Of a stretch of 45,174 bases of DNA, positions 15,320 through 19,520 are shown in pieces. Every line of letters begins with the position of its first letter. The stretch's first letter is position 1. The notes under the pieces are model-generated. The model saw only the letters and a list, made by a program, of their open reading frames with translations. It had not been told where the DNA came from and made no database searches. The DNA lies in NCBI GenBank assembly GCA_021825445.1, contig JAKAHA010000008.1, positions 1-45,174 of the forward strand. The letters are read 5' to 3'. The position numbers and the translations under genes were made by a program. Source of the DNA: a bacterium. GTDB taxonomy: Bacteria; Patescibacteriota; Microgenomatia; UBA1406; GWC2-37-13.

Positions 15320-16309
15320 TCATTGTAACAAATCATTTACCATAATTTTATCTCCCTCATTTAATCCTGAAATAATTTCAATTAAGCCATCGTTTGTTTC
15401 AAGTCCGACGATAATATCTTTTTCAACTGGTTTGTTGTTTACAAAAGCATTTACTTTGGCATGATCGCCGTCAATGTCCGAAATCGTATAAAGAGGAATC
15501 GTTAAAACATTAATTTTTTTATTTGTTTCGATATCGACATCAACCGCCATGCCAGATCTGAAATTGGGGTTTTCCGGAAGCTTTATCTCGGCTTGATAAT
15601 AGGTAATATTATTTAAAATCGTTTCCGCCTCATCAATTGAAGATATTTCGCCAAATAATTTTTTTCCAGGAAAAGCATCAAGAGTCAAAATAGTTGGAAG
15701 TCCGACTCTGACTTTAGTTACTTGAGATTCGGGAATGTTAACTGTAAGCTTTAAATTATCAAGATTTTGAATAGTGATTGCAGTCTTAGTTGACGAAGTG
15801 TAGTTTCCAACTTTAATATCAACGTTCGTAACAGTTCCTGCAAAAGGAGCATAGATATAAGTATTTATCAGATTGTGATTATAAACTTCAAAGTTTCTTA
15901 CAGCTTTATTTAAAGAAAATTGCTTAATATCCTCGGCTCGTCGCTCTTCAATTGTTTCCATTTTGTTATCATCTTTTTGTTGGTCAAAATTCCACCTGGC
16001 AATTAAAAAATCTTGCATAGCATTATCTTTTTCGGCAACGACACTGGTCGCGTCGATTGAAGCTAATATTTGACCTTGCTTTACCTTATCGCCTTTTTTG
16101 ACTGGTAAATAAGTTACCCTGCCAACAACACTAAAAGTCAGGTCGGCTTTTTCATTGGCTTCAATTTTTCCTTCAACTTTAACAATCTCTTTAATATTTT
16201 TTCTTTTAACTTCAATGGTTGGGCTTTTTTTTCCATTTTTTTTGGACATCGAAAAAAAGATAATTATTATCAAAGCAAAAATTATTCCAAAAATAATATA
16301 TTTTTTCAT
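15320..16309 (-). CDS. Membrane-fusion protein of ABC exporter (HlyD/MacA-like)
   Basis: 329 residues. One N-terminal membrane helix (4-21), then a biotinyl-lipoyl-like domain split in two halves (GRVTYLPVKKGDKVKQGQILASID at about 63-86 and INTYIYAPFAGTVTNVDIKVGNY), a short alpha hairpin, and beta-barrel parts (SGMAVDVDIETNKK). MacA/HlyD-type proteins link an inner-membrane ABC transporter to the outside. The hairpin is short (about 50 residues), as in monoderm versions. It follows the ATPase gene by 23 nt. Confidence 0.9.
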   Translation of the reverse strand: MKKYIIFGIIFALIIIIFFSMSKKNGKKSPTIEVKRKNIKEIVKVEGKIEANEKADLTFSVVGRVTYLPVKKGDKVKQGQILASIDATSVVAEKDNAMQDFLIARWNFDQQKDDNKMETIEERRAEDIKQFSLNKAVRNFEVYNHNLINTYIYAPFAGTVTNVDIKVGNYTSSTKTAITIQNLDNLKLTVNIPESQVTKVRVGLPTILTLDAFPGKKLFGEISSIDEAETILNNITYYQAEIKLPENPNFRSGMAVDVDIETNKKINVLTIPLYTISDIDGDHAKVNAFVNNKPVEKDIIVGLETNDGLIEIISGLNEGDKIMVNDLLQ

Positions 16310-16332
16310 ATTTCGACTTCGCTCAATATAAA

Positions 16333-17025
16333 TTACTTTTTAATTACTTGAATTTTATCAATTAATCCATCTTTAAGCCAGATTACTCGATTCATCCATC
16401 TAATATCTTCTTCTTCGTGGCTTACCATAATGATTGTTAGACCTAATTTTTTATTTAAATCCGAAAGAAGCTTCATTATATGATTTGAAGTTGCGCTATC
16501 AAGATTTGCACATGGCTCATCGGCAAACAAAATATGAGGAGAATTGCCAAGGGCACGGGCAATTGCAACCCTTTGCTGTTCTCCTCCCGATAGTTCATCT
16601 TGAAAATGCTCAATACGATTTTCCAAACCGACATCAGTCAAAACTTCAACTCCTCTTTCTTTACATTTATTATAATTCATTTTACCATCAACTAATAAAG
16701 GAACCATGACGTTTTCGACAGCATTTAGTTCAAAAATAACCGCGTATTCTTGAAATATATATCCAAGTTCTTGTAGTCTAAATTGAGTTTTTTCCTGGTC
16801 GGTCATTTCAAATACGTTTTTTCCCATCATAAAAAATTCTCCAGATGTTGCCGTATCAAGTAGCCCAAGGCAACGGAGAAGAGTAGATTTTCCCGAACCG
16901 CTCTTTCCCATAATGCCCAAAAATTCGCCTTTTTTTATTTCAAAAGAAACCTGTTTTAAAGCAGGAGTTGGAACTTTTCCGGGATAAGTGCGACCAAGTT
17001 TTTTTACGCTAATTACGCTCCCCAT
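16333..17025 (-). CDS. ABC transporter ATP-binding protein (MacB/LolD type)
   Basis: 230 residues, full length. Walker A GKSGSGKST at 40-48, Q-loop Q92 (YIFQEY), signature LSGGEQ at 145-150, Walker B ILFADE at 165-170 and an H-loop His in MVSHEEED. The FQEY and ADEPCANLDS patterns are typical of the MacB/LolD/FtsE group. It powers the exporter made by the neighbouring permease and fusion protein. Its start overlaps the permease end by 13 nt. Confidence 0.95.
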   Translation of the reverse strand: MGSVISVKKLGRTYPGKVPTPALKQVSFEIKKGEFLGIMGKSGSGKSTLLRCLGLLDTATSGEFFMMGKNVFEMTDQEKTQFRLQELGYIFQEYAVIFELNAVENVMVPLLVDGKMNYNKCKERGVEVLTDVGLENRIEHFQDELSGGEQQRVAIARALGNSPHILFADEPCANLDSATSNHIMKLLSDLNKKLGLTIIMVSHEEEDIRWMNRVIWLKDGLIDKIQVIKK

Positions 17026-18239
17026 ATGGCTTTTATTATCGGTTCTTTACTTGTTTTCCAGGCTGGTATGAAGCCCGAAATCACCGAGACAATTATTAAA
17101 CTATTAAGACTACTTAAAATATCACTAAACACAATATCCAAAGAAACTTTCCCAAATCCCATGTCAAGAGGATAGCTTTTAAAAATAGCATCCAATATCA
17201 CATACAAAACGAATACGCCAATAAGCGTTCCAATTATGACATAAAAAACTGCCTGAATTAAATAAGAAACGATAATGATATTTTTACTAACACCAATTGC
17301 CTTTAATATTCCAATCTGTCTTTTTTTATTAATAACATTAATAAAAATAACAATAAAAATAGTTGCCGCGGCAATAATTAGACTTATAAAAACCGTAATA
17401 CCGTTTAAAATTACAAAACTACTTTTCATCTGTTTGGTCATCGTCAAAAATTGATCCCAGCCGCTGATCTTTTCTTTATCAATTATTAATTTTTGAATTT
17501 TACTTATGTAAGGACGATAATTATCTGGTGATGACAGTTTTACATTTATTTCACTAGCTTGATTGAATGTTCCAAGTATTGACTCCATTTCTTTTTGAGT
17601 GATGTAAGCTGCCATATCGATCCCATCAATACCTGTCTTGTAAATTCCTTTGACTATAAATTTCTTTCTGACCCCATTAGGGAAAATTATATAAATTTTA
17701 TCGCCAATAGTTGGACCTTTCAAAGAATTTTCGTTGAAAGATGAGCCAGCTCCTCCTGCGATTTCAACGCCGATGACAACTGAATTTGTATCGCTGTCGT
17801 CAAGAAATTTCCCTTTAATGACGTGTTTGTATACTTCAATAACCTTTTTTTCTTGAGATGGAATTACTGAGATGACTTGATATCCACCCGACTCAATATT
17901 TTTGGCGTCCGCCCATCTGTCAAAAGTAAACTGCGCACCTAATTTATAGTGAGAGGCAGTTGCGATGACTCCTGGGATTGACTCGATCAGTTTTCTTTTC
18001 TTTTGGACATCTTCGAGATATTGTTTACCTCGCTCAGGTCGGATTATGACGTGAGAGAGCCAGTTGTTGATAAGTTGATTATCGAGAGTCTTCAACATTC
18101 CGGAAAATAAGGCTGAGGAAAAGGCAATGTTGATAAAAGATACACCGATAATGATCGGAGTCAAAATAATGGTTGCTTTATTGCTTCTTTTGAGCGATTT
18201 AAATGCCAAAAAAAATGCAACCTTCAAAGAATTGAGCAT
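17013..18239 (-). CDS. ABC exporter permease (FtsX/MacB type)
   Basis: 408 residues from the ATG at 18239 (MLNSLKVAFFLAFKSLKRSNKATIILT). The frame is open 66 codons further upstream, but TATAAT ends 6 nt before this ATG and the extension overlaps another gene, so the short form is preferred. Topology is one N-terminal helix, a large extracytoplasmic domain (about 50-270, MacB-PCD-like) and three C-terminal helices with INKKRQIGILKAIGVS, the FtsX coupling pattern. It would extrude a peptide, lipid or drug in a mechanotransmission manner. Confidence 0.88.
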   Translation of the reverse strand: MLNSLKVAFFLAFKSLKRSNKATIILTPIIIGVSFINIAFSSALFSGMLKTLDNQLINNWLSHVIIRPERGKQYLEDVQKKRKLIESIPGVIATASHYKLGAQFTFDRWADAKNIESGGYQVISVIPSQEKKVIEVYKHVIKGKFLDDSDTNSVVIGVEIAGGAGSSFNENSLKGPTIGDKIYIIFPNGVRKKFIVKGIYKTGIDGIDMAAYITQKEMESILGTFNQASEINVKLSSPDNYRPYISKIQKLIIDKEKISGWDQFLTMTKQMKSSFVILNGITVFISLIIAAATIFIVIFINVINKKRQIGILKAIGVSKNIIIVSYLIQAVFYVIIGTLIGVFVLYVILDAIFKSYPLDMGFGKVSLDIVFSDILSSLNSLIIVSVISGFIPAWKTSKEPIIKAIWGA

Positions 18240-18261
18240 CAAAATATTATAGCAGTAAGAT

Positions 18262-18498
18262 TTATTTTTTATGTAAGCAAAGAATCTTAACTTTTTTTCC
18301 AATAGGGTAAAGACTGTTTCCAAAATATAAAACTCCATTAGAACCAACAAAAGATATTGTATTGTAAAAAACTCTGTTTTTAAACTTATGAGCAGTTTTA
18401 TCTCCTGGATGAACAAAATCAGGCTTGGTCGCATCACCTACAACAAACTCAGGCCAAAACAATGAATCCCACTCTGACATCTTTTTCATTTCTGCCAT
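18262..18498 (-). CDS. Small hypothetical protein, 78 aa
   Basis: MAEMKKMSEWDSLFWPEF start; the rest (KNRVFYNTISFVGSNGVLYFGNSLYPIGKKVKIL) is beta-rich with no signal peptide. Family unknown. It is favoured over the overlapping upstream extension of the permease frame because TAGAAT ends 6 nt before its ATG and its composition is protein-like. The -10 box is built from the last unit of a (TAG)7 run. It could be co-transcribed with the exporter genes, 22 nt downstream. Confidence 0.5.
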   Translation of the reverse strand: MAEMKKMSEWDSLFWPEFVVGDATKPDFVHPGDKTAHKFKNRVFYNTISFVGSNGVLYFGNSLYPIGKKVKILCLHKK

Positions 18499-18537: not shown

Positions 18538-18606
18538 CGAAAATAGGTAAGAACTCACGGGCTTTGACAAAACTGTATCACAACGGGGACCCAGTGCTTT
18601 ATTGTT

Positions 18607-18633
18607 CTGGATTCCCGCTTCCGCGGGAATGAC
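18607..18633. repeat. ATTCCCGCTTCCGCGGGAAT repeat
   Basis: A single hairpin unit with CTGG and ATGAC ends in the gap before the antitoxin-like gene. It is the same family as the copy at 13266. Confidence 0.9.
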
Positions 18634-18659
18634 AAATGACGATGATATATAATTAAAAC

Positions 18660-18854: not shown

Positions 18855-19139
18855 ATGAAAAGCTGTTGTCCGCCAAAGTGGCTTCACATTTTTAAAGCGA
18901 TATCAGATAGTCACCGTCAAAATATCCTTTTTTTGGTCAATGAACATAAAAAAATAAACGCCACCGAAATAATTAAAAAAATAAAACTTTCCCAGTCGAC
19001 TATCTCTCATCACCTTAAAATCCTTACTGATGCAGGTTTGATCAAGGTTACAAAACAAGGGAAAAATGCTATTTACTCTGTTGAAAAAGAAGCAATTGCA
19101 GATTGTTGTCTAGGTTATTTACACAAAATTTCTAGCTAA
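18855..19139 (+). CDS. ArsR/SmtB-family regulator with two Cys pairs
   Basis: 94 residues from ATG at 18855 (TATAAT ends 8 nt upstream; an in-frame TTG 9 nt earlier is less likely). A winged helix covers about 10-78, with recognition helix SQSTISHHLKILTDAGLIKV and wing KQGKNAIYSVE. It lacks the ELCVCDL-type alpha-3 site, but has C4-C5 at the N-terminus (SCCPPKW) and C84-C85 at the C-terminus (ADCCLG); in a dimer these could form a metal or metalloid site of the alpha-N/alpha-5 type. It likely represses the promoter just downstream, which has two inverted repeats. Inducer unknown: arsenic, copper or another thiophilic metal are plausible. Confidence 0.88.
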   Translation: MKSCCPPKWLHIFKAISDSHRQNILFLVNEHKKINATEIIKKIKLSQSTISHHLKILTDAGLIKVTKQGKNAIYSVEKEAIADCCLGYLHKISS

Positions 19140-19145
19140 CTCCTG

Positions 19146-19190
19146 TATGTCAAATACATATTGACATATCGAAATACTTCGATGTATAAT
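19146..19190 (+). promoter_or_regulatory. Promoter with two nested operators
   Basis: -35 TTGACA at 19161-19166, 18-nt spacer, -10 TATAAT at 19185-19190. ATCGAAATACTTCGAT (19168-19183), a perfect inverted repeat with a 4-nt centre, fills the spacer, as in ArsR-type operators. A second inverted repeat, TATGTCAA...TTGACATA (19146-19168), overlaps the -35 box. ArsR binding here would block polymerase. Confidence 0.75.
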
Positions 19191-19198
19191 GTATCCAT

Positions 19199-19336
19199 AT
19201 GTTATTAAATCCACCATATCTTACTTCAAGCCTTTTCAGTACTATTCGTACACGGCTTGAAGAGCGATATTTGGTGGACATAAGTAACTGTAAAACTCGC
19301 TATAGCTCGTTAACAGTTACTAATGAAGGGAGGTGA
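19199..19336 (+). CDS. 45-codon leader ORF with two hairpins
   Basis: ATG lies 8 nt after the -10 box, so the ORF would be leaderless. It reads MLLNPPYLTSSLFSTIRTRL and on to ...SLTVTNEGR, no family known. Its TGA falls inside the AGGGAGGTGAG ribbon of the next gene's ribosome binding site, which suggests translational coupling. Two hairpins lie inside: TCCACCATATC..CTTCAAGCC (19210-19232) pairs with GGCTTGAAG..GATATTTGGTGGA (19254-19278), and AGTAACTGT (19283-19291) with ACAGTTACT (19313-19321). It may be an attenuating leader rather than a functional protein. Confidence 0.5.
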   Translation: MLLNPPYLTSSLFSTIRTRLEERYLVDISNCKTRYSSLTVTNEGR

Positions 19337-19343
19337 GAGACAA

Positions 19344-19520
19344 ATGATGAGAAATTTTTTAAAAAACTTTACCCATACGGTAGAAAATAAAGGAGAATCT
19401 TTAGTTATTACTGTAAAAGGAGAAAAAGAAAAAATTGCTGGTTTAGAAAAAAAATTAAAAGCAATAAAAGAATTGTGTTGCGGAGAAGATGGTTGTTGTG
19501 GAGATCATGGTTGTTGCTAA
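19344..19520 (+). CDS. CC-rich small protein, likely metal-binding
   Basis: 58 residues. The start at 19344 is chosen because AGGGAGGTGAG, the strongest Shine-Dalgarno sequence in the window, ends 6 nt upstream; an ATG at 19323 lies before it. The N-terminal 44 residues are basic and amphipathic (LVITVKGEKEKIAGLEKKLKAIKEL). The tail carries C45-C46, C51-C52 and C57-C58, with H55, in the pattern CCxxxxCCxxxxCC. This could bind Cu(I), Zn or As(III) as a metallothionein-like chaperone. Together with the CC-pair ArsR upstream it looks like a metal-response unit. Its last 66 nt overlap a convergent gene. Confidence 0.75.
   Translation: MMRNFLKNFTHTVENKGESLVITVKGEKEKIAGLEKKLKAIKELCCGEDGCCGDHGCC

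Follow-up and report, generated by a model that had tools for sequence, protein, structure and literature searches.

The window, that is, the whole stretch of 45,174 nucleotides analysed here, belongs to a draft genome of 1.02 Mb. Two small genes lie side by side on its forward strand, one for an ArsR-type regulator and one for a 58-aa protein that ends in a Cys-rich tail. These genes and the features around them are as follows:

18855..19139, + strand: ArsR/SmtB-family regulator of 94 aa, with one Cys pair (Cys4-Cys5) ahead of helix 1 and another (Cys84-Cys85) within helix 5
19146..19168, no strand (arms 19146-19153 / 19161-19168): outer inverted repeat TATGTCAA-N7-TTGACATA, not counted as part of the unit
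19161..19190, + strand: sigma-70-type promoter of the peptide gene, TTGACA-18 bp-TATAAT (from the sequence; same position in six loci)
19168..19183, no strand: palindrome ATCGAAATACTTCGAT between the -35 and -10 boxes, probably the operator of ArsR (from alignment and PWM)
19199..19336, + strand: 45-codon ORF, judged not coding, which spans the double-hairpin element
19207..19321, + strand: copy of a double-hairpin element, most of the 5' leader (from fold z, related copies, and covariation on 79 copies)
19326..19336, + strand: strong Shine-Dalgarno sequence AAGGGAGGTGA of the peptide gene (from the sequence)
19344..19520, + strand: 58-aa small protein, an H-E-E-H domain plus the tail CCGEDGCCGDHGCC (homologues in 6 other genomes)

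The regulator matched HTH_5 (PF01022, E = 1.3e-12, 47.8 bits against a cut-off of 22) and HTH_metalloreg (NF033788, 77.2 bits against a cut-off of 55). Both scores are above the curated cut-offs and place the protein in the ArsR/SmtB family. The AF2 model (pLDDT 86) agrees with this assignment: it predicts helices at residues 7-16, 19-31, 36-43, 47-59 and 78-93 and a wing at 63-76, which is the winged helix with N- and C-terminal helices of that family. The closest PDB sequences were CzrA, CadC, and other metal sensors (best 4ggg, 1r1u, and 3f72). Cysteine occurs at positions 4, 5, 84 and 85 only, so the first-pass annotation was right to describe an ArsR with C4-C5 and C84-C85 and no alpha-3 Cys motif. 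The ArsR homologues share 48-53% identity with the window protein; in them, C84-C85 is invariant (6/6) and the N-terminal CC is found in 5/6, with CLC in its place at L015. The C4/C5 and C84/C85 pairs could meet across the ArsR dimer.

Vicinal-Cys sites for As(III) have been described in AfArsR (Cys95/96/102) and CgArsR (Cys15/16/55'), so that a vicinal pair at the C-terminal helix (Cys95/96 of AfArsR) or at the N-terminus (Cys15/16 of CgArsR) is a likeness to the protein studied here (PMC11868830). The window protein differs from them in that both pairs lie in one 94-aa chain, with no third Cys and no adjacent ars genes. It has two C-terminal Cys instead of the three of the AfArsR type. Compared with the Cys15/Cys16/Cys55' arrangement of the CgArsR type, the N-terminal pair is present and the only further Cys are C84/C85. 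The R773-type CxCxxC of alpha-3 (Cys32/34/37) is absent. Thus, the protein has only four Cys, with no third Cys that matches the three described As(III) sites, and this argues against an exact copy of either vicinal site. CzrA has an Asp/His Zn site, and CadC has an alpha3N Cys site. The winged-helix ArsR fold is common to both and to the window protein; however, neither metal site is evident in the latter by sequence, and the gene that it probably controls encodes a small protein and no pump.

Two further ArsR genes were observed. The second ArsR of the window's genome (L001:1402-1662, - strand; G000, contig C9) adjoins a membrane protein (L001:615-1400, - strand) that resembles SdpI/DUF1648 by eye, and we take the two to be probably an ordinary SdpR/SdpI-type pair. 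In G051 (L029:645-1306, - strand), an ArsR with only the C-terminal CC is followed by a Cys-rich protein of 114 aa; the latter looks thioredoxin-like by eye, and we assume that this is possibly a related sensor/thiol-protein pair.

The 58-residue protein carries its CC pairs at 45-46, 51-52 and 57-58, and the three pairs and the strong Shine-Dalgarno sequence before the gene agree with their earlier description. GGAGG or GGGGG occupies the Shine-Dalgarno position in all six loci. The homologues are 53-62% identical, with a conserved domain from K7 to L44 in which NKGExLVI and KELC are highly conserved. It had been proposed that loss of the Cys tail in homologues would speak against the metal-response unit. 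We found a Cys-rich tail of 4 to 6 Cys in 7/7 members, although the Cys spacing varies. Across the 7 sequences, the differences at the three codon positions number 270/137/481, which indicates selection at the protein level. By eye, a terminator-like hairpin stands 3' of most of the other peptide genes.

We found no known relative of this protein. There was no convincing Pfam match for any of the 7 members, and the metallothionein Pfam models gave no match at E ≤ 1 for any of them; by sequence family the peptide is not a bacterial metallothionein of the BmtA/SmtA kind. No NCBIfam or PDB relative of the window protein was found. An HSP20-like kinship was considered and set aside, the matches to PF17886 (E = 0.079) and 4rzk (E = 0.048) being not significant. 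The AF2 model, whose overall confidence is modest (pLDDT 72), predicts a helix at 2-6, strands at 10-15 and 20-25, a helix at 28-45, and a disordered tail with pLDDT below 50. A PDB fold search with this model returned nothing significant (best E = 0.6).

The two genes recur together. A protein search of 144 relatives gave three further peptide homologues (E < 1e-11), and in each case the gene immediately upstream, in the same orientation, encodes this ArsR. A scan of the genome collection added two pairs, in UBA10108 and PFL108, and the class search found these again as G620 and G557. arsR and the peptide gene are therefore adjacent and on the same strand in 6/6 loci, with flanks that differ between loci. 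The six pairs are spread over three families of the class Microgenomatia (Roizmanbacteria and relatives), and the MAGs of relatives with the unit have been deposited under the names Candidatus Roizmanbacteria, Microgenomates, or Patescibacteria. Within the window's family (72 genomes), the peptide and a full-length CC ArsR (E ≤ ~1e-45) mark the same set of four genomes, and neither protein was found in the remaining 68. The next-best ArsR of this family (E = 2e-23) has no N-terminal CC. The chance that both sets of four genomes coincide is 1/C(72,4), or about 1e-6, if independence is assumed and shared ancestry is ignored. In a class sample of 373 genomes, no full CC ArsR occurred without the peptide, and the sole other ArsR at E ≤ 1e-20 has no N-terminal CC.

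One homologue of the peptide stands apart. In a genome of another class (G384), at L014:1289-1668, the peptide gene is preceded by that of an uncharacterised 62-aa protein without a Pfam match, and the genome has no CC-type ArsR; its regulatory context is thus different. ArsR is accordingly beside the peptide gene in 6/7 homologues, which bears out the expected adjacency. No plasmid or viral homologue of the peptide was found, and no viral copy of the operator or of the leader element.

The promoter of the peptide gene has its -35 box TTGACA at 19161-19166 and its -10 box TATAAT at 19185-19190, with a spacer of 18 bp. The -10 box is TATAAT in four loci and TATACT in two. All six loci share the promoter block TTGACATATnnAAATnnnTCnATnTATA[AC]T, and the intergenic flanks are not conserved. 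Two inverted repeats had been read as a dual operator. The palindrome in the spacer is kept in 6/6 loci, as the first-pass annotation anticipated for an operator, although its conservation overlaps promoter conservation in part; the outer inverted repeat exists in the window but is absent from the alignment of the other loci, and its role as a second operator was rejected. We searched four genomes, one of them 77% complete, for the operator pattern with a tolerance of two mismatches, and found it only at the arsR-peptide locus. The lone extra match, in G026, is a reverse-strand match that overlaps the same site, and a reversed-pattern control gave 0. In L005, L006 and L015, the PWM also detected a further, weaker site that overlaps the start of arsR or lies immediately before it, which hints that arsR may be autoregulated in some genomes. 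The recurrence of the pair with its promoter and operator exceeds chance. A palindromic ATTCCCGCTTCCGCGGGAAT repeat was also seen at 18605-18637, just upstream of a 56-aa ORF and arsR; similar sequences lie in the flanks of L006 and L147.

We examined the neighbouring genes. Genes for HlyD, an ABC-ATPase, and FtsX, which form an ABC exporter set, lie on the opposite strand of the window at 15320-18437, 0.4 kb away, and a TspO gene is also on that strand. The earlier statement that no pump is nearby is thus not literally correct for the window itself, but no ABC exporter genes flank the pair in the other loci examined. The neighbours there are unrelated (aminotransferase, methyltransferase, acyltransferase, and uncharacterised proteins), so that the conserved unit consists of two genes. 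PF20603 ('Bacterial hydrolase') is the only recurring neighbour, near L015 and L016. These proteins (L015:4539-4895 and L016:7374-7856, both - strand) have a CC motif near their start and lie within about 1.2 kb of the pair. No PF20603 protein was found in the window, and as a third member of the unit it was rejected because it is present at 2/6 loci only. At the level of sequence comparison, adjacency, the promoter and operator, peptide coding, and Cys retention in both proteins are conserved, and there is no conserved third gene.

The 45-codon ORF between promoter and peptide gene had been taken for a leader ORF. The ORF exists, but nothing conserved is encoded in it: its reading as a regulatory uORF was rejected, since neither L004 nor L015 has a conserved counterpart and L005, L006 and L019 lack a comparable leader. 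Instead, most of the leader is formed by one copy of an element of about 115 nt with two hairpins, which is dispersed in Microgenomatia; hairpin 1 is at 19210-19278 and hairpin 2 at 19283-19321. The fold z of the leader is -3.66 in the window, -3.24 in L004 and -6.35 in L015, and hairpin 2 shows compensatory change in 7/12 pairs across three sequences. The window and L015 carry the element, L004 has a diverged form that the hairpin 1 covariance model (R1) does not score, and it is absent from the leaders of L005, L006 and L019. It is thus optional in the leader and does not belong to the switch. Rfam gave no match at the gathering score in the window and nothing relevant up to E = 5 in three loci; a known riboswitch was rejected on this ground, and an RNA specific to the unit because the hairpin is dispersed across related genomes.

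R1 matched 54/96 related genomes, with 1-14 copies where present, and a refined model (R2) found the element in 13/362 genomes of the phylum, all but two of them of the class Microgenomatia. Copies were observed at 19207-19321 in the window, at L015:4172-4300, and at L051, L053, L054, L055 and L077-L156. We aligned 79 copies (78 of 80 retrieved places, and L015). In this alignment, 93.2% of paired cells are standard pairs, a percentage that leans towards the model because the copies were found with it, and doubly changed cells number 340 against 97 in shuffles. Hairpin 2 (AGAAnCnGT...ACnGnTTCT) follows hairpin 1 in most copies. The element lies between smpB (named by eye) and tmRNA in eight genomes; elsewhere it lies between tRNAs, against 5S rRNA, or before the SD sites of genes such as HU.

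According to automated gene calls, its orientation to the flanking genes is sense in 27 cases, antisense in 20, divergent in 11, and convergent in 10. G-U pairs make up 1.2% of its pairs compared with 6.5% in the tRNAs of the same loci. Such rare G-U pairs suggest that both strands must fold, and the constraint may therefore act on DNA; an orientation-specific cis-RNA is disfavoured by both observations. Similarity between copies is 69% when they occupy the same site in different genomes, slightly above the 62% for copies that share a genome and the 57% for random pairs; this fits a long persistence of the element at given sites. RAYT-like Y1 transposases (PF01797; L157-L176) were observed in 9/10 genomes tested, some of them flanked by palindromes such as ACCTACAAGGTTGGACCTTGTAGGT. 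An origin of the element as a RAYT REP was rejected: R1 matched within about 1.5 kb at 1/20 Y1 loci, with one further marginal match (E = 0.13), and the Y1 genes whose flanks were inspected carry palindromes other than the element.

ERIC/IRU-type repeats are small imperfect palindromic elements that occur several times per genome, in intergenic and transcribed regions and in either orientation. The leader element, as distinct from the gene pair, resembles them in all these respects; the class has been reviewed (PMC2229807). It differs in its two separate hairpins, its nearly G-U-free covariation, its position flush against RNA genes and SD sites, its occurrence in Microgenomatia, and the lack of any transposase found with it. 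It is possibly a new class of intergenic element.

For the pair itself, the best precedent comes from cyanobacteria, where ArsR-family repressors adjoin small metallothioneins in the smtB/smtA divergon and the bxmR/bmtA operon (PMC8790569). As in SmtB/SmtA and BxmR/BmtA, an ArsR/SmtB gene stands beside a gene for a Cys-rich protein of about 55-60 aa, an imperfect inverted repeat overlaps the promoter, and no pump is required (PMC8790569). Adjacency together with such an operator was found in 6/6 loci. However, the peptide here matches no Pfam family, metallothioneins included, and has a separate H-E-E-H domain; its Cys are arranged as CC pairs in a C-terminal tail; the regulator has no alpha-3 Cys; the host is a CPR bacterium; and the genes are co-directional, whereas the smt genes are divergent. 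Our best reading is that the pair is an analogue of SmtB/SmtA and BxmR/BmtA, without homology on the side of the peptide.

We propose that an ArsR repressor controls a metallothionein-like small protein that sequesters a metal or metalloid, and we give this reading a probability of about 0.66. Without metal, the ArsR dimer would occupy the palindrome between -35 and -10 and block RNA polymerase. The vicinal Cys pairs of ArsR would bind a thiophilic ion, which might be As(III)/Sb(III), Cd, Pb, Zn, Hg or Cu(I). The ion-bound ArsR would then leave the operator and the 58-aa protein would be made, whose Cys-rich tail would chelate the ion as a metallothionein-like buffer. We infer repression, metal binding, the choice of metal, and sequestration; for metal binding, the reasons are the As(III)-sensor precedent for vicinal Cys pairs at both ArsR termini and the acidic, CC-rich tail. 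Of the earlier core claim that a CC-pair ArsR controls an adjacent CC-rich peptide without a pump or reductase of its own, the tail (7/7), the adjacency (6/7), and the operator (6/6) stand, but the dual operator and the leader ORF do not.

Other explanations of the pair should be weighed. SqrR, BigR and RexT are ArsR members that sense oxidants or persulfide via Cys pairs. With this precedent, the window ArsR might be a redox or reactive-sulfur switch that forms a disulfide or persulfide between its Cys pairs, in which case the Cys-rich protein would act as a thiol buffer or as a carrier of sulfur. The NCBIfam scan did return a weak BigR match for the regulator, but its score of 24 bits is far below the cut-off of 155. 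Moreover, vicinal CC forms a mutual disulfide poorly and is typical of metal(loid) sites, and the peptide tail combines CC with acidic residues in the way typical of metal sites. We therefore consider such a switch quite improbable. A metal chaperone or delivery factor, in which the H-E-E-H domain docks on a partner and bulk sequestration plays no part, would account for the conserved folded domain before the tail, which is absent from simple metallothioneins, and for the strong conservation of NKGExLVI and KELC. However, no recurrent partner gene stands beside the pair (PF20603 is near 2/6 loci), and the poorly conserved spacing of the tail is unlike a single chaperone site, so that this explanation is also unlikely.

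The size of the peptide, its conserved N-terminal part, and its variable C-terminus rich in Cys, Gly and Asp resemble the leader and core of a RiPP precursor. This origin is very improbable because none of the scanned neighbours encodes a modification enzyme, those at the other loci include no radical-SAM, YcaO, lanthipeptide synthetase, or exporter gene, no NCBIfam RiPP model matched, the conserved part is predicted by AF2 to be partly beta-stranded, and control by ArsR would be unusual. Finally, an ArsR gene and an unrelated small ORF could have been paired by chance or by recent shared ancestry, since only six genomes, all of one class, are known to carry the pair. We regard this as scarcely credible: adjacency and operator are kept at six loci in three families with differing flanks, at about 50% ArsR and about 60% peptide identity, and no other gene accompanies all six pairs.

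A wider picture that joins the pair to its leader can be offered only tentatively, and we consider it somewhat doubtful as a whole. The locus may be a minimal CPR metal circuit in which a dual-CC ArsR and a new folded family with a Cys tail sequester a metal or metalloid without export. The leader in half of the loci would derive from an undescribed double-hairpin element, dispersed in Microgenomatia and constrained at the DNA level, as its Watson-Crick-only covariation and its occurrence in either orientation suggest. Packed against tmRNA, tRNA, 5S, and ribosome-binding sites, it would be a candidate for a shared processing, insulation, or mobile module.

A literature search without most subscription journals found no description of the pair, the peptide, or the leader element. 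The pair had been put forward as a make-up without a described counterpart. Because ArsR/metallothionein pairs are known in cyanobacteria (PMC8790569), the type of circuit is not wholly new, but the unrelated peptide family and the CPR setting are. What looked like a leader ORF turned out to be a dispersed element that is widespread and missing from Rfam, which matters for the annotation of such genomes. Having no Pfam, NCBIfam, or PDB match, the peptide is a candidate new metal-binding protein family. CPR bacteria have genomes of about 1 Mb. Both proteins of the pair are small, and, if our reading is true, this pump-less circuit of a sensor and a chelator would rank among the smallest known systems for metal response.
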